Shown here: one piece after another, positions 49,698 to 56,938 of the stretch
Numbering within the stretch: the stretch's first letter is position 1
How the letters are laid out: every line of letters begins with the position of its first letter
Origin: Lewinella sp. IMCC34183
GTDB lineage: Bacteria; Bacteroidota; Bacteroidia; Chitinophagales; Saprospiraceae
Direction of reading: 5' to 3'
Assembly (NCBI RefSeq): GCF_003390915.1
Contig: NZ_QMEM01000002.1
Location: forward strand, 496,001 to 560,000
DNA: 64,000 nucleotides
Notes under the pieces: model-generated
What the model saw: the letters and a program-made list of their open reading frames with translations, nothing else
Told to the model about the DNA's origin: nothing
Databases searched by the model: none
Program-made: the position numbers and the translations under genes

Positions 49698-50120
49698 ATG
49701 GCTTCCACCATCGCCAACATCTTTGCCCTGCGGTGTCCTACCTGCCACCACGGGGAGCTATTTCCCACCGGCTCGCTCTCCTTTGATCGTCCGTTCGAGC
49801 AATACAAGCACTGTCCGGCCTGTGGCCAGAATTACTTCCCCGAACCGGGCTTCTACTACGGGTCGATGTTCATCTCCTACATCGGCTCGGGATTTGCCTG
49901 TCTGGGGATCGTGATGTTCCTGCGGTGGGTACTGGGTTGGTCGATGGTCGCCTCGTTTGCCACCCTCCTCGCGATTGTTGCGATCTGCTTTGTCTGGTGG
50001 TTCCGGTTCGCCCGTTCGATCTGGATTCATATGGTTTGCCGGTACAAGCCCGAAGTGGCTGCTGCCGTCGAAGCGGGTACGCTGCAGGTAGCTCCTCCCG
50101 GGACGTCCAATCGGAGCTAG
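49698..50120 (+). CDS. DUF983 family protein
   Basis: 140 residues. LRCPTCHHGELF and KHCPACGQNYFPEPGFYYGSMFISY are the two CxxC knuckles and the signature after them; two membrane helices follow (FACLGIVMFLRWVLGW, FATLLAIVAICFVWWF). A widespread inner membrane protein of unknown function in Bacteroidota and alpha-proteobacteria. Its likely regulator is the divergent Rrf2 protein. Confidence 0.93.
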   Translation: MASTIANIFALRCPTCHHGELFPTGSLSFDRPFEQYKHCPACGQNYFPEPGFYYGSMFISYIGSGFACLGIVMFLRWVLGWSMVASFATLLAIVAICFVWWFRFARSIWIHMVCRYKPEVAAAVEAGTLQVAPPGTSNRS

Positions 50121-50300
50121 CGGCTGCGGCTTGAGCGGGAGGCTACCCAGCCCACACTGTTTACGTTGGTAGTTTGGGCCCAACCAATTTATGCGCGGCA
50201 GAAGCATCACTTTCCGGGCTGGTGGTTTGTTGCGAGTATCTGCCGGCTATAGCTAATATTCAGCCGGCGCTATACCTGCACGGTGCCAGTGGTAGCGTTG

Positions 50301-51215
50301 TCAGTTAAAGGACTTTCTAAAGTCCAGAGGAGTAGTGTTGGTCACTTTCTTGAATAACTTACTGAAGGACTGCGGATGCTCGAAACCCAAATCGTAAGCA
50401 ATCTCACTGATGGATTGATTGGAGATCGATAGCTTCCGCTTGGCCTCGCTGATCAACTTATCGTGAATGTGTTGCTGTGTGCTTTTACCCGTTAGCGATT
50501 TCAGCACGGTACTCAGGTAATTCGGGGAGATATTCAGCGATTCGGAGATGACTTGCACGGAAGGAAGACCTTTGTTGACCGTCCCTTCGCCCTTAAAGTA
50601 GTTGTTCAGCGTATTCTCCAGCGCCTCCAAGATTCTATGGTTGACAATTTTACGGGTGACGAATTGCCGCTGGTAAAACCGTTCGGCGTAGTTCAGCAAG
50701 GTCTCAATCTGGGAGACGATGATGCTTTGGCTGAATCTGTCAATATTATTATGGCATTCCTGTCGAATGTTTTCAATGAGGCCGTTGATCACCCTTTCCT
50801 CTTTATCCGAGAGGAATAGCGCTTCGTTTACGGCGTAGTTGAAAAATTCGTACCGCTGTATCGCCTTGGATAAGGCAGTCTTCCAGAAGAAATCCGGATG
50901 GACGAGCAGCAACCAGCCCTGCTGCTTGATAAGCTCGTCCCTGGAATGCTCGATTCTGAAGACCTGATTGGGCGCGATGAAGTACATCAGGCCTTCATCG
51001 AAGTCGTATTCGCTCTGCCCGTAACCGAACTTGCCGTTGAAGTCCCGTTTCAGGGATATAGAGTAGTAGTCCAGCACCATATTGATCGGTTCGCTGTAGT
51101 GCTTGATATCCTGAACGTCGACCACACTGATCAAAGGATGTTCCGGTGGCGGCAGACTTCTGGAGCGGTGGAATTCGCTGATCTTCCTGTAATGATTGAT
51201 AGTTTGCTTTGCCAT
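50301..51215 (-). CDS. AraC family transcriptional regulator
   Basis: 304 residues. N-terminal cupin-like sensor (SISLKRDFNGKFGYGQSEYDFDEGLMYFIAPNQVF), then two HTH units: SVQVISESLNISPNYLSTVLKSLTG and ISEIAYDLGFEHPQSFSKLFKKVTNTTPLDFR, the standard AraC signature. It heads an AT-richer region and probably controls the adjacent membrane/VOC genes on the same strand, which lie just upstream of it. Confidence 0.94.
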   Translation of the reverse strand: MAKQTINHYRKISEFHRSRSLPPPEHPLISVVDVQDIKHYSEPINMVLDYYSISLKRDFNGKFGYGQSEYDFDEGLMYFIAPNQVFRIEHSRDELIKQQGWLLLVHPDFFWKTALSKAIQRYEFFNYAVNEALFLSDKEERVINGLIENIRQECHNNIDRFSQSIIVSQIETLLNYAERFYQRQFVTRKIVNHRILEALENTLNNYFKGEGTVNKGLPSVQVISESLNISPNYLSTVLKSLTGKSTQQHIHDKLISEAKRKLSISNQSISEIAYDLGFEHPQSFSKLFKKVTNTTPLDFRKSFN

Positions 51216-51226
51216 TATTCGCCGGT

Positions 51227-51442
51227 TTAACTTATGAGCCAGTTGCGAAATTTCCCCTGTAGCACACCTAACAGAAGTACCATTAGAGGAACCAAAATAA
51301 TCGTTGAGATCAGCGTCCTAAGCAGCTGATCGAGCCCCGAGAGATAAGGACCTAGCAGGAAGGAGATGATATTCAGCAAAGGATAAATACAGGTCCAGCT
51401 CAACACCATCATCTTCCACTTCTTTGGAGTCTTTTCCTGCAT
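51227..51442 (-). CDS. Small two-helix membrane protein
   Basis: 71 residues from ATG 51442; the longer frame overlaps the VOC gene. MMVLSWTCIYPLLNIISFLLG and LRTLISTIILVPLMVLLLGVLQGKFRNWL resemble the two-helix module known as a stand-alone protein or fused to antibiotic-biosynthesis monooxygenases. Function unknown. Its start lies 14 bp after the VOC stop, so the two are co-transcribed. Confidence 0.75.
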   Translation of the reverse strand: MQEKTPKKWKMMVLSWTCIYPLLNIISFLLGPYLSGLDQLLRTLISTIILVPLMVLLLGVLQGKFRNWLIS

Positions 51443-51455
51443 AACTTTCTTGGTT

Positions 51456-51902
51456 TTACGGCCGGAGTGCTTCCGCGAATTCAATCGTATTACCGAAGGG
51501 ATCGCTGATGAACGCTACCCGCTTTCCGATGACGGGCACCTCAAAGCTTCTGTCGATTTTGATGTTCCGAAGCTTCAAGGCAGCCATGGTTTCCTCCAGG
51601 TTGGCCACGCTGAAACAGACGTGATCGTAGCCCTCGTTCACTTTTGAAGATGATACCTCACTGCCTGTGACCCCCAGCACTTCCAGGAGGAAGTCATTAT
51701 CACCGGGGGGCGCAATCAATGCTAATTGCATTTCTCCGGCGGTAAATGCTTTGACCATCCTGAAGTCCAGCTTATCCTGGTACCAGGCGATAAGGCCTTC
51801 AAAATGGGTTGTCCGTATGGCCACGTGCCACCCCTTGACATCTTGGAACACGCTGCTTTCATCGCGTTCGGGATAGTCTAGGGTTGAAATTAAATTGTTC
51901 AT
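51456..51902 (-). CDS. VOC superfamily protein (glyoxalase-like)
   Basis: 148 residues with the paired beta-alpha-beta-beta-beta units: WHVAIRTTHFEGLIAWYQDKLDF, LLEVLG, YDHVCFSVANLEETMAALK and AFISDPFGNTIEF. His (WHVA), Glu (LLEV), His (YDHVC) and Glu (IEF) are possible metal ligands. It could be a dioxygenase, glyoxalase or resistance protein. First gene of a three-gene run with the small membrane protein and AraC. Confidence 0.88.
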   Translation of the reverse strand: MNNLISTLDYPERDESSVFQDVKGWHVAIRTTHFEGLIAWYQDKLDFRMVKAFTAGEMQLALIAPPGDNDFLLEVLGVTGSEVSSSKVNEGYDHVCFSVANLEETMAALKLRNIKIDRSFEVPVIGKRVAFISDPFGNTIEFAEALRP

Positions 51903-52649
51903 GGTTTAGGTTTTTGGGGTTTGTGGCAAGCTTTGGCAGAGTCCGTCGTGTAATATTTCAGTCTTGCCCTTCTTAGATCACGCCCGTTCTTATCGCAGTC
52001 TTTGCCAGGGGTGTTCTTGGGCTGATTGAGGCGCTGGTCGCTGCCACATCGACGCTGCCATAAAATCACAGGAGCAAAATTAGGATCGCCAGCAAAGGCG
52101 GGGGTAGCCGTATCTACGCATGACGTATCCGATTCTATTTAGCGGCCGCCCTTTGCAGTTAATTCCACTCCTCTCCCAGCCCGATAAAGAGGTTACGGGC
52201 AGTAGCTGGGTCAGTCCTACCAAAAGGCTTGCAGACGTTCTTCTATCGCCTTTTTCTCTCAGGGCCGTGATTTCACCTTTTCAGCATCGGTGTCCAAGAG
52301 CCAGTTAGATCACGGGAACGCTACTTCACCCACAAAGCCTAGATGTGAGTAGGTAGGTCACCTATCGTACCTCACCAACCTTGCCTGGCACAGCCACGGG
52401 TTGACCAGTGAAACTTCCAGGGAGTCAGCTGCATATCCAACCCGAACCTGACCCTGCCCGGCCAGCGCAACGGATTGTCACTCACGTTTACGGCTGGCCG
52501 GCAATCGGCAAGGCTTCAACTAGATATTACGTTTCCTCAACTATTTAATGAAGGGTAAAGAACATCCTTACTGATTCGATAATTATTCGGGGCACAGGCT
52601 TTTCCAGCAACCCGAAATCTCTACTCTACCAACTAAAACCGAGCCGATC
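51903..52649. other. 747 bp without recognisable gene
   Basis: Short frames exist (for example 52120-52308 on the plus strand) but none has coding character. No terminator, repeat or promoter could be identified with confidence. Confidence 0.5.
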
Positions 52650-53057
52650 ATGCCCCTTATCAGAATTGACCTCAACGAAGGCAGAACCGATGAAGAACTC
52701 AAAGCCATCATGGACACCGTCCAGGACTGTTCCGTGGAAACCTTAGGCGTACCCGAGCGGGACCGCTACCAAATCGTCACCGAGCACAAACCGGGACGAA
52801 TGATTCTCCTCGATACGGGGTTGGGCTTCGAGCGCAGCGACAAAGCCATCGTGATCCAGGTATTCACGAGTCCCCGGGCGACCATCAACAAGACGAAATT
52901 CTACGAAATGCTGTCCCAAAAACTGGAGGCAAACTGTGGTCTGGCCCGAAAGGATCTGCTGGTGTCGGTAATGACCAATACCGATGTGGACTGGAGCTTT
53001 GGCTTTGGTGAGACGCAGTACCTTTCTGGGCAACTGCCTAAGGATGAGGAATCTTGA
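52650..53057 (+). CDS. Tautomerase family protein
   Basis: 135 residues. MPLIRIDLNEGRTDEELKAI gives the N-terminal catalytic Pro-2 and the usual tautomerase start. DRYQIVTEHKPGRMIL and AIVIQVFTSPRATINKTKFYEML are typical of the longer 4-oxalocrotonate tautomerase-like (MSAD-like) group. Probably a cytoplasmic enzyme acting on enol/keto acids. Followed by a strong terminator. Confidence 0.92.
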   Translation: MPLIRIDLNEGRTDEELKAIMDTVQDCSVETLGVPERDRYQIVTEHKPGRMILLDTGLGFERSDKAIVIQVFTSPRATINKTKFYEMLSQKLEANCGLARKDLLVSVMTNTDVDWSFGFGETQYLSGQLPKDEES

Positions 53058-53078
53058 TAAATAATCAATATGCATTTT

Positions 53079-53120
53079 GATGCTCTTGGAAACCTGCGGT
53101 TTCCAAGAGCATCAGTCTTT
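53079..53120 (+). terminator. Perfect 16-bp hairpin after the tautomerase gene
   Basis: GATGCTCTTGGAAACC (53079-53094) pairs perfectly with 53098-53113 around a 3-nt loop, followed by AGTCTTT. Confidence 0.8.
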
Positions 53121-53278
53121 ATAGCCATCACAGGACTGATCAAGTTACCCCTTAGACTTTCAGGAGAAAGAAAGGTCCATTCTCGTTTCTATAGCGCCTA
53201 AAACTCTCCTTTTACTGAACTATGGTATAGGGGAGAGTCCAACCTCTACGGGTGGTATCCGCTATGGACGATCCGAAA

Positions 53279-53704
53279 TTACCTCTCTACCCGTTTAAGC
53301 CCACTCACTACTCCGTTCCGGACCAAGGTACCGTATTCGTCATCCGGCAGCGAATCGAAATGCTCCATTGCCCGGGTGTAATTCAGACGGGCCCGTTCCC
53401 GATCGCCCAGGTCTTCGTAACCTTTGCCCACGTTCAGGTACAGCGAGGGCAGTACGCTGCGCGTAGCATCCCCTTTTATCCTTAGGGCATGGTTCAGGGC
53501 CGTGGTGTCCCAGTGGAGTTTATCTTCGATCGTCGCCTGATTCCGGGCCACGTAATGGGCGGCCGTGAATTTTTCGAGATCGGTCCGGGCCATAGCCCAT
53601 GCTTCCCGCAACAGCGCCGCTGCCTGTTGCTTCTCCCCCACTCCTTCCAGCTCCATGCCCTGGGCGCAGCGCTTTACGACTTCGTTTTCCGGGTCAAATT
53701 GCAT
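53279..53704 (-). CDS. TPR-like soluble protein
   Basis: 141 residues, all helical. Repeats such as QGMELEGVGEKQQAAALLREAWAMA and LNVGKGYEDLGDRERARLNYTRAMEHF are TPR units; between them AAHYVARNQATIEDKLHWDTTALNHAL is conserved in a small Bacteroidota family I recall only loosely. No signal peptide. Partner or function unknown. Confidence 0.75.
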   Translation of the reverse strand: MQFDPENEVVKRCAQGMELEGVGEKQQAAALLREAWAMARTDLEKFTAAHYVARNQATIEDKLHWDTTALNHALRIKGDATRSVLPSLYLNVGKGYEDLGDRERARLNYTRAMEHFDSLPDDEYGTLVRNGVVSGLKRVER

Positions 53705-53848
53705 GAGTTTCCTGGTTCTACGTATCGGTCACTAATTAGGCCAGCCACCCTACCGAGTCACGTAAGTGCTTTCCTTAACTGTACAATCTCAAAGAGTCAC
53801 CCAGCATAAGCGTATATCCCCAATTCCGCCCGGTTATGCCTGGTGGCG

Positions 53849-54310
53849 TTAGGGACAATATTTGCCTAAGATTTTATCGATCCGTGCTTTGTTATACTGC
53901 TGCAACAAGACCGGATAACCGTTCAGTAGTACGTTCAGCACTATTCCCAGGAGGAGGAATACCCCGTTTGTGTACTTGACATACACAAGTGTCAATATAA
54001 GTTGCGCACTTACTAACCCGATCAAATGGCCTAGTTCCGCGTCCGTCATCTTTTTCCTTAGTTCCCGTACTTCCCGACAGTTTCCCCCATTAACTGCTAG
54101 CGACGTATTGATTTTTCCATACACCGTCTTGGTAACAATTTCCTTGAACAGATGCACCCCCAAGTAGGTATTCAGTTCATCACTCTTGATCAGTCGCAAG
54201 TTGGAAAGTGAAGCGGCGGAAAGGTTCGTTATATGTAGATAGCGGGTGACTATAGCTCCTATCGCCCAGGAACTGAAGATGATCGAGGCTAGGTGGATTA
54301 GAGAATTCAT
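53849..54310 (-). CDS. Membrane protein, possibly CrtO-acyltransferase-like
   Basis: 153 residues with an N-terminal helix (SIIFSSWAIGAIVTRYL) and two C-terminal ones (GLVSAQLILTLVYVKY, GVFLLLGIVLNVLLNGYPVLLQQYN). The layout, with YLGVHLFKEIV, a KKMTDAELGHLIGL segment and N.YPVLLQQYNKARI at the end, recalls the CrtO family of glycosyl-carotenoid acyltransferases, but this is a weak resemblance. AT-rich. Downstream neighbour of the ATP-grasp gene on the same strand. Confidence 0.6.
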   Translation of the reverse strand: MNSLIHLASIIFSSWAIGAIVTRYLHITNLSAASLSNLRLIKSDELNTYLGVHLFKEIVTKTVYGKINTSLAVNGGNCREVRELRKKMTDAELGHLIGLVSAQLILTLVYVKYTNGVFLLLGIVLNVLLNGYPVLLQQYNKARIDKILGKYCP

Positions 54311-54326
54311 TTTTTGTTACTGACTA

Positions 54327-54554
54327 CGGCCGTCACGGTACTTTTGACCAATCGCCCAGGTCTCCCATGTTGGCTTGACCAAAACTACTTCCGATAGAGA
54401 ATGCCGTGGCATACTTTATGCAATACTCCCTCTGGATCCGCGAGGGCGGCCGTAACTGTATTTTTTTGCCCACGGCTCCCGGCCTTCTACAAGGGCTTGA
54501 CCTAAACCTGCTCCCGCTATAAAATATCTTGACACATTTTCTTCAATACTCCCT
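54327..54554. repeat. Two diverged tandem copies of a ~105-bp element
   Basis: 54327-54431 and 54447-54554 both run from CGGCCGT through a T-rich box, a GGCTTGACC box and a final CAATACTCCCT. They are clearly related but diverged. The second copy touches the stop codon of the ATP-grasp gene. No reading frame is kept between them, so this is non-coding. Confidence 0.7.
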
Positions 54555-55536
54555 AGACAACCCCACACCCCGCTTTTTGAGTAACCCTATGTTCTTCTAT
54601 TGACTGAATGAGGAATTGAGAGAAAGAATTAGTAAGATCATATCCAGTCAGTGCTTCTCCAAAAAGAAATTGACCCTGAGTATTGATTTCAAGCCATACC
54701 AGGTCGCCATCACTATTGTATTTTAAATCCATGATACCCATTCTTAAGTCTAATTTGCACAATATTTGATAAAGCTTTCGCTCCCATTCATCTTCTAATC
54801 TATATTCCTTGAATGGAACCGACAAATCCCTACGCCAATCCAACCTATTCGCTTCTATAAGTATCGGGTGAATGTTTCTACCAAAGCAATTTACTCTTAA
54901 GTGGGTATTGCCATCAATGACCTCTTGATACATAGCCGGACAAAGTAAAATTGCTTCTTCTGCCGCCCTTAGATCAGTCGACGATAGCTTTAGTGTAACA
55001 AGTGGGCGTAGGCTTGTCCCAAGTAGCTTTTTAACTATGACCTCCCCGCCCAACTTATCACAAAATTCAATTACAGCATTGAAATCCTGAGAGATAAGGG
55101 TTTTCGGTACGCGAAATCCCACATCCTTAGCAACGTTGAGGTGATAAAGTTTATTACCGCCGTACAAATCAGTATGCGGCTTATTGACCCATACGCCTTT
55201 AAACTTGTCTAATATTATACCTAGTAGAGATGACTTCCACTCATTTGTAACTATCTCCTTGCTTATATCGTCGTTCACCCGATCAGTTTCCAACTGAGGT
55301 TGATTAACCCTTCTCCACCATATCAAATCTAACTCTTCGACATTAAACCATTCACCTTCGTATGACCTTAATAAGGCCTTATTGTCGCAATCATTCCTCC
55401 AAATAATACCTCCGTGAGTCACCGTAGCATTAGTAGCAACAAAATGACACTTCACTCCGTGGACCTTCCGGAGATTATCCATAATGGCATAAGCATGGAT
55501 ATCCAGCTCTAACGAAAAAATCGCTATCGTAAACAT
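54553..55536 (-). CDS. ATP-grasp peptide maturase (graspetide/microviridin type)
   Basis: 327 residues. LDLIWWRRVNQPQ (residues 69-81) is the W.RR..QP signature of MvdD/PsnB-like ATP-grasp ligases. EVIVKKLLGTS (165-175) carries the ATP-binding Lys. YQEVIDGNTHLRVNCFGRNI is the central strand region. MDLKYNSDGDLVWLEINTQGQFLFGE (269-294) contains the Mg-binding Asp, Glu and Asn and the NxQGQFLF ending of this group. Known members join Ser/Thr or Lys side chains to Asp/Glu side chains of a precursor peptide. Strongly AT-rich relative to the chromosome, so probably acquired. The precursor candidate lies 143 bp upstream. Confidence 0.88.
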   Translation of the reverse strand: MFTIAIFSLELDIHAYAIMDNLRKVHGVKCHFVATNATVTHGGIIWRNDCDNKALLRSYEGEWFNVEELDLIWWRRVNQPQLETDRVNDDISKEIVTNEWKSSLLGIILDKFKGVWVNKPHTDLYGGNKLYHLNVAKDVGFRVPKTLISQDFNAVIEFCDKLGGEVIVKKLLGTSLRPLVTLKLSSTDLRAAEEAILLCPAMYQEVIDGNTHLRVNCFGRNIHPILIEANRLDWRRDLSVPFKEYRLEDEWERKLYQILCKLDLRMGIMDLKYNSDGDLVWLEINTQGQFLFGEALTGYDLTNSFSQFLIQSIEEHRVTQKAGCGVV

Positions 55537-55637
55537 GGCATAAGCGAATGCAGTGCAGTACCCGACTGTTTGAGTATACAGCTAGAAATAACACCGTGTG
55601 AAAACTTGAATCTTAATCGATGAGATCCTAATTACAA

Positions 55638-55670
55638 AGAAGTCCAGACAGTATAACTGCCTGGACTTCT
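55638..55670 (-). terminator. Hairpin between precursor and maturase genes
   Basis: AGAAGTCCAGACAGT (55638-55652) pairs with 55656-55670 over 15 bp with one mismatch and a 3-nt loop, 9 bp after the precursor stop. On the minus strand it is followed by a weak TTTGTAATT run. It may be a leaky terminator that keeps the precursor transcript more abundant than that of the maturase. Confidence 0.65.
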
Positions 55671-55678
55671 GATTAACA

Positions 55679-55966
55679 TTAGTCCTGATCGCAGTCGTTC
55701 GAAGGAGATCCGGATTCGCAGCAGGTTCCAGAATTCGCAAGAATGTCATTTGCGATCTCTTTGCCTACAATGCCTTTCATTCCTACTCTTTCAATGAGCA
55801 TTGACTCCCACTTTCTTAGGTCCTCCGGGTCTTCCAGAACGGTAAACATTTGTGGTTGAAAGTGAAATACTACTGGAGTAGTGTACTTAGAATGAAATTT
55901 GCTCGACGCAACAGCCTCCGCATTGAATTGCATTTCGCGTTCTCTCTTTTTTGAATACTCGCTCAT
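55679..55966 (-). CDS. Probable graspetide precursor peptide
   Basis: 95 residues from ATG 55966 (MSEYSKKREREMQFN). The first ~77 residues would be the leader, with VVFHFQPQMFTVLEDPEDLRKW and VGMKGIVGKEIANDIL as its most structured parts. The last 18 (NSGTCCESGSPSNDCDQD) hold three Cys, five Ser/Thr and four Glu/Asp: hydroxyl donors and carboxyl acceptors for the ester links that ATP-grasp maturases make, plus unusual cysteines. The family was not recognised; precursor identity rests on position, size, leader/core build and the maturase next door. It could instead be an unrelated small protein. Confidence 0.6.
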   Translation of the reverse strand: MSEYSKKREREMQFNAEAVASSKFHSKYTTPVVFHFQPQMFTVLEDPEDLRKWESMLIERVGMKGIVGKEIANDILANSGTCCESGSPSNDCDQD

Positions 55967-56383
55967 AGCTGAATGGGTTGAAGTGAACGCTCTGGTGCTT
56001 GCACACCTGACGGCCACCTAGGTGATGAATTAAATTTTCCTACGAACAGAATCATATTATACTTAAAGCGCGTAAATGATTATCTATTCGTAAACTGTCT
56101 TACCTAATTTACAGCATAGCGGATTTAAAGTCAAGTAAAAGAATGCGAAAGTTAAAATTTCACTATATATAGGTATGCTTCCGCTTTAAATGTAATATTG
56201 AACAAAAAAACATATAACAAGTTAAAAGCGCGTATACCTGCAATGTACAGTTGGATTTGCCTAAATTGAGATAACCATCCCACACAGCCGCCGCCGTTCA
56301 CCCTAGCACCTTTCGGTTTAGGGTCACAGCGGTCAGAAATGCCAACCTGGCCGGTACGCGTTTTGGGGGTGGGCTCACCCCCC
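55967..56383. other. AT-rich upstream region of the precursor gene
   Basis: No gene. Very AT-rich, with two AAGCGCGTA motifs (near 56066 and 56227) that may be regulatory. This is the right border of the AT-rich stretch; base composition returns to G+C-rich at about 56280. Confidence 0.4.
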
Positions 56384-56938
56384 CTACCTCCACTTAATCC
56401 CACACCCAGCACTAGGGTACTGCTTCTCCGGACTGGGCTCCCCCTTCAGCATGGCGTCGATGGCGTGGCGCAGGTCTTCGCCGGTGACGGGCTTACCGGA
56501 GCGCGGACGGCTCTCGTCCAGGCGGCCGCGGTAGTACAGCTTGCCCTGCCCGTCGAAGAGGTAGAGGTCGGGGGTGCAGGCGGCGTCGTAGGCCTTGGCG
56601 GCGGACTGCTCCTCGTCGTAGAGGTAGGGGAAGGTGAAGAAGTTGTTGAGGGCGAAAGCCTCCATGTTGTCGGGACTGTCGACGGGGTACTTCTCTACGT
56701 CGTTGCTGCTGATGGCCACGGCACCGACGCCCCTGGGCTCGTAGTCGTTGGCTACGTCCACCAGCTCCTCGATGGTGTGGAGCACGTAAGGACAGTGGTT
56801 GCAGATGAAGTACACCAAGGTTCCCTTCTCCCCCTTGACGTCGTCGTAGGTGAGCTTGGCACCGGACATGGTGTCGACGAGCTTGAAGTCGGGGGCCGGG
56901 GTGCCGATAACGACCATGGTGGATTCTGTGAGGGCCAT
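56384..56938 (-). CDS. Thioredoxin-like peroxiredoxin-family protein
   Basis: 184 residues of the AhpC/TSA-Redoxin group: IGTPAPDFKLVDTMSG, LVYFICNHCPYVLHTIEEL with a CxxC at Cys 46/49, AISSNDVEKYPVDSPDNM, AACTPDLYLFDGQGKLYYRG and PVTGEDLRHAIDAML. Widely present small redox protein of unknown partner. The ATG at 56938 is the accepted start, although MVVIGTPAPDF eight residues later is possible. A heptanucleotide repeat lies immediately upstream. Confidence 0.9.
   Translation of the reverse strand: MALTESTMVVIGTPAPDFKLVDTMSGAKLTYDDVKGEKGTLVYFICNHCPYVLHTIEELVDVANDYEPRGVGAVAISSNDVEKYPVDSPDNMEAFALNNFFTFPYLYDEEQSAAKAYDAACTPDLYLFDGQGKLYYRGRLDESRPRSGKPVTGEDLRHAIDAMLKGEPSPEKQYPSAGCGIKWR

Follow-up and report, generated by a model that had tools for sequence, protein, structure and literature searches.

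A probable two-gene graspetide cassette with a cysteine-bearing core in Lewinella sp. IMCC34183

The window analysed here is a stretch of 64,000 nucleotides from the genome of Lewinella sp. IMCC34183. On its minus strand, a gene for a small protein with a cysteine-bearing tail precedes a gene for an ATP-grasp enzyme, which raises the question of what the pair makes and what the cysteines do. The locus is very likely a minimal two-gene graspetide cassette that makes side-chain macrocycles. The cassette is probably real and functional, and its product is probably a small ring-linked peptide. The kind is known, being a graspetide with a cysteine-containing precursor of the sort already reported, and the variant is new.

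The order of the two genes, small protein and then enzyme, had been given in a first-pass annotation and was confirmed from the open reading frames. The precursor peptide gene (55679-55966, minus strand) is an open reading frame with 15 homologues and encodes 95 amino acids from its ATG; an alternative GTG start at 56017 would yield a precursor of 112 residues. The 95-residue protein ends in NSGTCCESGSPSNDCDQD. Residues 1-80 (55727-55966, minus strand) form the leader, which contains a conserved motif and, in the window copy, no cysteine. Residues 81-95, TCCESGSPSNDCDQD (55682-55726, minus strand), form the predicted core. The synthetase gene (54553-55536, minus strand; 327 amino acids) follows after a gap of 142 bases, inside which folding places a 15 bp stem-loop (55638-55670, minus strand; z -5.9). 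Hairpins of unrelated sequence occur at the same place in L031 and L039, the only other loci folded (z -5.0 and -3.9). By analogy with other RiPP operons the stem-loop is likely a partial terminator that would keep precursor output above enzyme output; an attenuator or a 3' stabiliser is possible.

The enzyme is a graspetide-type synthetase with an MdnC-like fold, a family call that is sound because NCBIfam, PDB profile and structural matches agree. The same three lines back the first-pass annotation, which had called a graspetide-type maturase from two signatures, W.RR..QP and EIN...QGQFLF, present in the 327-residue protein as WWRRVNQPQ and LEINTQGQFLF. The WWRR signature, residues 73-76 (55309-55320, minus strand), is invariant in 32 of 32 aligned relatives. 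EINTQGQFLF, residues 283-292 (54661-54690, minus strand), is supported by the alignment of relatives and by the PDB profile; its E and N correspond to metal ligands of ATP-grasp enzymes. A Pfam search with the enzyme returned no match. The best NCBIfam model is TIGR04187 (GRASP_SAV_5884), yet the score of 121 bits is far below the cut-off of 350. The enzyme also falls below the cut-off of the grasp-with-spasm model (59/230 bits) and the equivalog cut-offs for MvdC (109/425 bits) and MvdD (94/475 bits), and is an equivalog of neither. With a profile built from the window enzyme and 31 of its 62 matches (32 sequences in all), six PDB sequences were retrieved at E <= 1e-5, 5ig9, 7m4s, 5ig8, 7mgv, 9bou and 7drm, all of which are RiPP ATP-grasp ligases (MdnC, AMdnB, MdnB, CdnC, PruB and PsnB). 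The E-x-N site is kept in all five of the PDB alignments inspected, and the D-W-R motif is kept in 5ig9, 7m4s, 5ig8 and 7mgv and absent from 9bou. The AlphaFold2 model of the synthetase (pLDDT 92.8, pTM 0.89) has MdnC with the MdnA leader (5ig9) as its top structural match (TM 0.85/0.89). Structural matches 1-31 are graspetide synthetases (E 3e-24 to 5e-16), with LysX/ArgX and RimK next. The fold and the D-W-R and E-x-N motifs are shared with MdnB/MdnC of graspetide group 1; identity is ~20%.

The 95-residue precursor has no match in Pfam or NCBIfam. A first search of a 5.8-billion-protein collection gave 15 homologues (E <= 2.3e-14), which keep two blocks, one in the leader at mid-protein and the other comprising the last 15 residues. 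The leader motif reads P-V-V-F-x-F-Q-P-x(8)-D-P-E-D-L-R-K-W-E. A wider profile search gave 94 proteins (E <= 0.01), the sources of which include Saprospiraceae, Streptomyces, Kitasatospora, Actinokineospora and Brasilonema. Among the resulting 95 sequences P31, Q37, P47, E48, L50, W53, E54 and G62 are at least 90% conserved. MdnA likewise has a leader with a conserved segment led by Pro; the motif here is PVVF-x-F-Q-P...W-E, and that of microviridin is PFFARFL (PMC8939145). AlphaFold predicts the precursor with low confidence only (pLDDT 62.8; below 50 for residues 78-91). In L045-L048 the precursors, at 173-202 amino acids, hold two leader-plus-core units per protein and lie upstream of the synthetase; the tandem cores of L046-L048 are of the type G-G-T-[VI]-[ST]-F-C-x-R-G-G-[ST]-G-A-A-Y-R-C-D-[CS]-D. 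Cyanobacterial precursors (L032:712-990, L033:9358-9648, L034:9703-9987 and L035:9706-9987) begin with a hydrophobic N-terminus that by eye resembles a signal peptide, followed by the usual leader motif, an arrangement that would point to export of these graspetide precursors through Sec.

Pairing was followed in loci centred on the synthetase, for which 80 of 191 confirmed relatives were kept, plus 29 from another search. An iterated precursor profile, run on 11,634 small open reading frames up to 10 kb on each side of the synthetase, found 44 precursors, all among the 80 loci. In every case the distance to the synthetase is at most 353 bases; the precursor precedes it in 41 cases and follows it in three (L038 and L043, both on the opposite strand, and L061). 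Where the synthetase shares 32% identity or more with that of the window, 42 of 53 loci have a precursor; below 32% none of 27 does. Precursor and synthetase distances are correlated across 42 loci (Mantel r = 0.86; none of 2000 shuffles reached it, the highest being 0.28), a value to which shared descent of the hosts contributes, in a set that crosses phyla. For 9 of 25 precursors compared (out of the 94), the longest contig has the same size as that of a synthetase match. Co-occurrence had been proposed as a check on the small protein's precursor status, and an orphan precursor had been named as evidence against it; every one of the 44 precursor matches in the 80 loci adjoins a synthetase, and no precursor without an ATP-grasp neighbour was seen in these loci or in 395 genomes of the phylum. 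The co-location and the correlated distances mark the small protein as a real precursor that travels with its synthetase. The other 11 of the 53 loci (L036, L060, L063, L067, L069, L070, L073, L075, L076, L077 and L081) have no precursor at E < 1e-3. Eight of them, all but L036, L060 and L081, hold a weak candidate (E 0.03-0.2), and the candidates in L069, L075 and L077 have a core without Cys, which indicates that Cys is not essential across the whole enzyme family.

The tail of the window precursor had been described as carrying TCC, Ser and alternating Asp/Glu. The TCC and the Ser residues are as stated, but the acidic part is rather D-C-D-Q-D plus one Glu. All three cysteines lie in the last 18 residues and none in the first 77. 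In the genome set (n=44) Cys accounts for 13.3% of the last 22 residues, and in the protein set (the window and 94 others) for 16.4%, against 0.2% and 0.1% of the preceding 55 residues. At least one Cys occurs in the last 22 residues of 139 of 139 precursors (130 distinct), and at least three in 25/44 (genome set) and 78/95 (protein set). Alignment of the precursor C-termini, also proposed at the outset, gave a conserved core in the close homologues: all 16 sequences (the window and 15 homologues) share T81, C82, E84, S85, D91, C92, D93 and D95 without exception. The other finding named at the outset as counter-evidence, a C-terminus not conserved among relatives with the maturase, was not seen in the precursors examined. 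As these homologues keep the tail and the Cys are confined to the C-terminal end, the tail is more than chance. The microviridin core is not known to contain Cys.

The core of the close clade has the form [T/S]-x-[C/S/T]-E-S-x(4-5)-D-C-D-x-D. It contains three possible donors and three Asp acceptors, each set spaced i, i+2, i+4, and by number and spacing Thr81, residue 83 and Ser85 match Asp91, Asp93 and Asp95. The loop between donors and acceptors has five residues, or four in relatives without Pro. A D-x-D-x-D ending occurs in 24 of 96 precursors examined, with Cys between the first two Asp in every case; 21 of these also carry E-S-G/N, so that the three Asp, E84 and S85 are fixed in them by selection of the set. 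In those 21 precursors residue 81 is T (19) or S (2), residue 82 is C (19), A (1) or T (1), residue 83 is C (18), T (2) or S (1), and residue 92 is always C. A Gly precedes the core, and most close relatives have SG or GG there. In the wide family column 82 holds A 58, C 22, G 17 and others, Ser/Thr is found at column 81 in 53 of 108 precursors, Gly at column 85 in 18, and the last Asp is absent from many. A three-ring ladder would therefore be limited to the close clade.

Modelled on these features, the leader segment P-V-V-F-x-F-Q-P ... P-E-D-L-R-x-W-E would dock on the ATP-grasp synthetase, which would phosphorylate core Asp side chains, and the core nucleophiles would then attack. Up to three side-chain macrocycles would form within the 15-residue tail, the predicted donors being Thr81, Ser85 and, between them, residue 83, which is Cys in the window copy and a hydroxyl residue (Ser or Thr) in relatives, and the predicted acceptors Asp91, Asp93 and Asp95. 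A laddered hairpin is suggested by the equal spacing of donors and acceptors (i, i+2, i+4). Ester rings combined with a disulfide or a thioester, as the first-pass annotation proposed, are plausible. We infer that cleavage near Gly80, before core residue 81, releases the core; the remaining Cys82 and Cys92 may pair as a disulfide after export. Ring connectivity from covariation was considered and rejected. In the Streptomyces TEGCSCGCSDK type the donor Ser and the acceptor Asp look, by eye, to be lost together, which may be one event, and the core register is ambiguous, as MAFFT and end-anchored readings disagree for P0123, P0130 and L039. No connectivity is claimed for these reasons.

Cys83 (codon 55718-55720, minus strand) is the candidate thioester donor position, on account of its exchange pattern. 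The synthetase may natively use a Cys donor, in which case a Cys83-Asp side-chain thioester (thiolactone) would belong to a three-ring laddered graspetide. We put this forward tentatively, as a serious possibility that is nonetheless rather doubtful. It is opened by the wide family, where column 83 holds C 41, S 36, T 19, A 6, P 4 and G 2 (n=108), and so exchanges Cys with Ser/Thr in 96 of 108. This count is anchored on the following Glu, with column 83 free and column 85 limited to S/T/C/G. It covers 108 of the 130 distinct precursors, the 22 without the motif being excluded, and a few of the 12 rows with neither S, T nor C at column 83 are probably mis-anchored (L054, L062, P0128 and P0153). 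Within the close clade, well-supported sisters differ at the column: P0002 has S and P0003 has C (support 0.975), and P0144 with C is grouped with P0151 and P0156 with T (support 0.997). The tree, built on ~60 leader residues, gives a rough Fitch count of 18 changes (C/hydroxyl/other) at column 83, against a shuffled mean of 42. Such an exchange is what one would predict for a ring that can be closed by either a hydroxyl or a thiol, although selection for nothing more than a small polar side chain would leave the same picture. Ester-making synthetases can form thioesters once the donor is changed (PMC12291112, PMC13097080), and no report of a native thioester graspetide was found in the open literature searched.

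The main rival to the Cys83 thioester is a disulfide. All rings would then be esters, formed by Thr81, Ser85 or a loop Ser/Thr with Asp, and residue 82 or 83 would pair with Cys92, an account that comes close to an even chance of being right. Cys92 is invariant in the 16 close homologues and in all 24 precursors that end in DxDxD, and by spacing it occupies no donor column. Cys is about as frequent at column 82 of the close clade (19/21) as at column 83 (18/21), and P0002 (L031), with Ser at 83, has an extra Cys at 94, as if the Cys had moved. The donors of graspetides are described as Ser, Thr or Lys (PMC13097080). However, three is an odd number of cysteines for pairing, column 83 exchanges mainly with Ser/Thr, and P0156 has a single core Cys, which makes an internal disulfide impossible there.

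It is improbable that the core Cys instead act as metal ligands, in the manner of the zinc-binding cysimiditides, with the rings holding the site of a metallophore or metal-dependent effector. The many precursors that have at least three Cys among their last 22 residues would fit, and in a different RiPP class a zinc-binding motif of Cys is important (PMC13001092), but the count and position of the Cys vary widely, down to one, and no metal-transport family stands out among the recurring neighbours. Very improbable indeed is a LysW/LysX- or RimK-like system, in which the small protein would serve as amino-group carrier or polyglutamylation target and the enzyme would add an amino acid to its C-terminus without closing rings: LysX/ArgX and RimK are the next folds (query TM ~0.62-0.69) and the precursor C-terminus is acidic, yet RimK-type structures start at E 1e-14, behind the 31 graspetide synthetases, the PDB profile search yields RiPP ligases only, and donor-type residues are conserved along with the acidic ones.

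The two-gene graspetide cassette can be set beside several known systems. Rosaritide (group 21) has the Asp acceptors D22, D24 and D26, with S9-D26 and T11-D24 nested and a third ring, S8-D22, that is not (PMC13097080); fuscimiditide/ThfA has the nested stem esters T3-D22 and T7-D18 (PMC13003496). The window core resembles rosaritide in its alternating Asp acceptors and both peptides in its nested Ser/Thr-Asp pairs as predicted, but it bears Cys, whereas they have Ser/Thr donors only. Rosaritide also requires a partner protein, whereas no partner-protein gene recurs beside the cysteine-core cassette in 43 loci. The first-pass annotation knew of no graspetide core with three cysteines. That cysteine in such cores lacks precedent is not supported: Makarova et al. 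2022 reported conserved Cys in many newly predicted graspetide precursors and suggested radical-SAM thioethers (PMC8939145). In that work branch 5 combines precursors with conserved Cys, as here, with loci that encode a SPASM radical-SAM enzyme; none recurs in the present loci. The open literature searched yielded no characterised product whose core bears Cys in the pattern of the window, and the branch, which is widespread, appears to be uncharacterised. A survey of 2026 with 43 graspetide groups (PMC13097080) shows that the field has mapped many of them, and the Actinomycete part of the cysteine-core branch may therefore already bear a published group number. A cross-phylum, two-gene, Cys-loaded branch is a simple place to test native thioester formation. 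Were the thioester true, the branch would swap ester and thioester rings via Ser/Thr-Cys exchange at one donor column, and the built-in electrophile could serve the peptide as a chemical warhead or as a handle for further ligation. Were the Cys in disulfides, this would still be a graspetide branch, one that may join two types of staple with no dedicated tailoring gene adjoining the cassette.

Neighbouring genes were surveyed as open reading frames of at least 100 amino acids within 6 kb in 43 loci including the window (full extent in 36 of 43), with families judged by eye. The synthetase recurs in 43/43, followed by other frames over the synthetase and by the precursor. An ABC ATPase and a short-chain dehydrogenase are each found in 5/43, and no other family occurs in more than 3 of 43, apart from the tandem-unit precursors of four loci. 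There is no widely recurring transporter or peptidase gene within 6 kb in the 43 loci, so leader removal and export must rely on proteins encoded elsewhere. Two C39-peptidase domains are encoded in the host genome, on another contig; given the SG/GG before residue 81 a link to leader removal or export is suggestive only. A crude scan of open reading frames of at least 200 amino acids found the CxxxCxxC signature in 5/43 loci, with L059 a convincing radical-SAM protein by eye. The host genome has 16 radical-SAM domains, of which the nearest on the same contig is separated from the cassette by more than 240 kb, and no SPASM radical-SAM partner gene adjoins the ligase. The thioether explanation of Makarova et al. 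thus has no co-located enzyme here.

An NHCPY-type redoxin gene (56384-56938) lies upstream of the cassette, and one with 35% identity lies upstream in L031. It was considered as a disulfide partner and rejected. Of 20 genomes searched, the host's own among them, 19 contain a match, and in three congeners a redoxin gene of 88-89% identity stands without a cassette in the 12 kb examined. The orientation differs, and thioredoxin-like genes occur in 3 of 43 loci (crude motif scan, the window's own redoxin not counted). A possible second precursor at 54333-54568 was likewise rejected. The region between the synthetase and the next gene contains a degenerate direct repeat (54381-54554; 51 nt, 73%, spacing 123), there are stops in each forward frame, and the repeat is dispersed, with three other places in the genome. 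Further along the minus strand are a CrtO-domain protein and then a weak TPR protein (Pfam). The former (53849-54310; 153 amino acids), downstream of the synthetase, matches Pfam CrtO (glycosyl-4,4'-diaponeurosporenoate acyltransferase, E 3.3e-18) and forms no family common to other loci in the neighbour clustering.

The locus does not stand alone: it is one member of a large cysteine-core branch, with 139 precursor matches in at least five phyla. By organism name, the 44 precursors of the genome set come from Bacteroidota, Cyanobacteria, Actinomycetes, Proteobacteria and one Paenibacillus. The host genome holds one precursor and one synthetase of this kind. Among 395 Bacteroidota genomes, with limited candidates scored per genome, the precursor was found in one, the host's own, and the cassette is accordingly rare and patchy in the phylum. 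The nearest named relatives are Saprospiraceae MAGs (synthetase 72% identical). Any synthetase at E <= 1e-20 occurs in 4 of 60 relatives, the host's own genome included, and no precursor of the cysteine-core family was found around the synthetases of the other three. The G+C content is 42-44% in the two 1-kb windows that hold the cassette, which is AT-rich, compared with 49-53% over the adjoining four kilobases (50-54 kb) and 58-64% at 46-50 kb and 57-62 kb. The low G+C and the patchiness suggest that the cassette was gained horizontally. A viral origin was rejected, as a scan of viral contigs gave no relative, and so was a plasmid origin, as a plasmid search gave distant synthetases only (best 35% identity). 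The stretch of lower G+C at 50000-56400 carries an AraC regulator, a glyoxalase and a tautomerase together with the cassette. Near the redoxin gene of three congeners none of these was found except for distant AraC-domain matches (34-40%), and the stretch is a possible variable island. In one relative (L133:5679-6342), tandem small open reading frames that share the ending F-I-x-G-G-E-L ... D-[LI]-Y-D-[ST]-E-T-x-x-x-Y-I-I lie upstream of a different ATP-grasp gene, which is interrupted by a stop.
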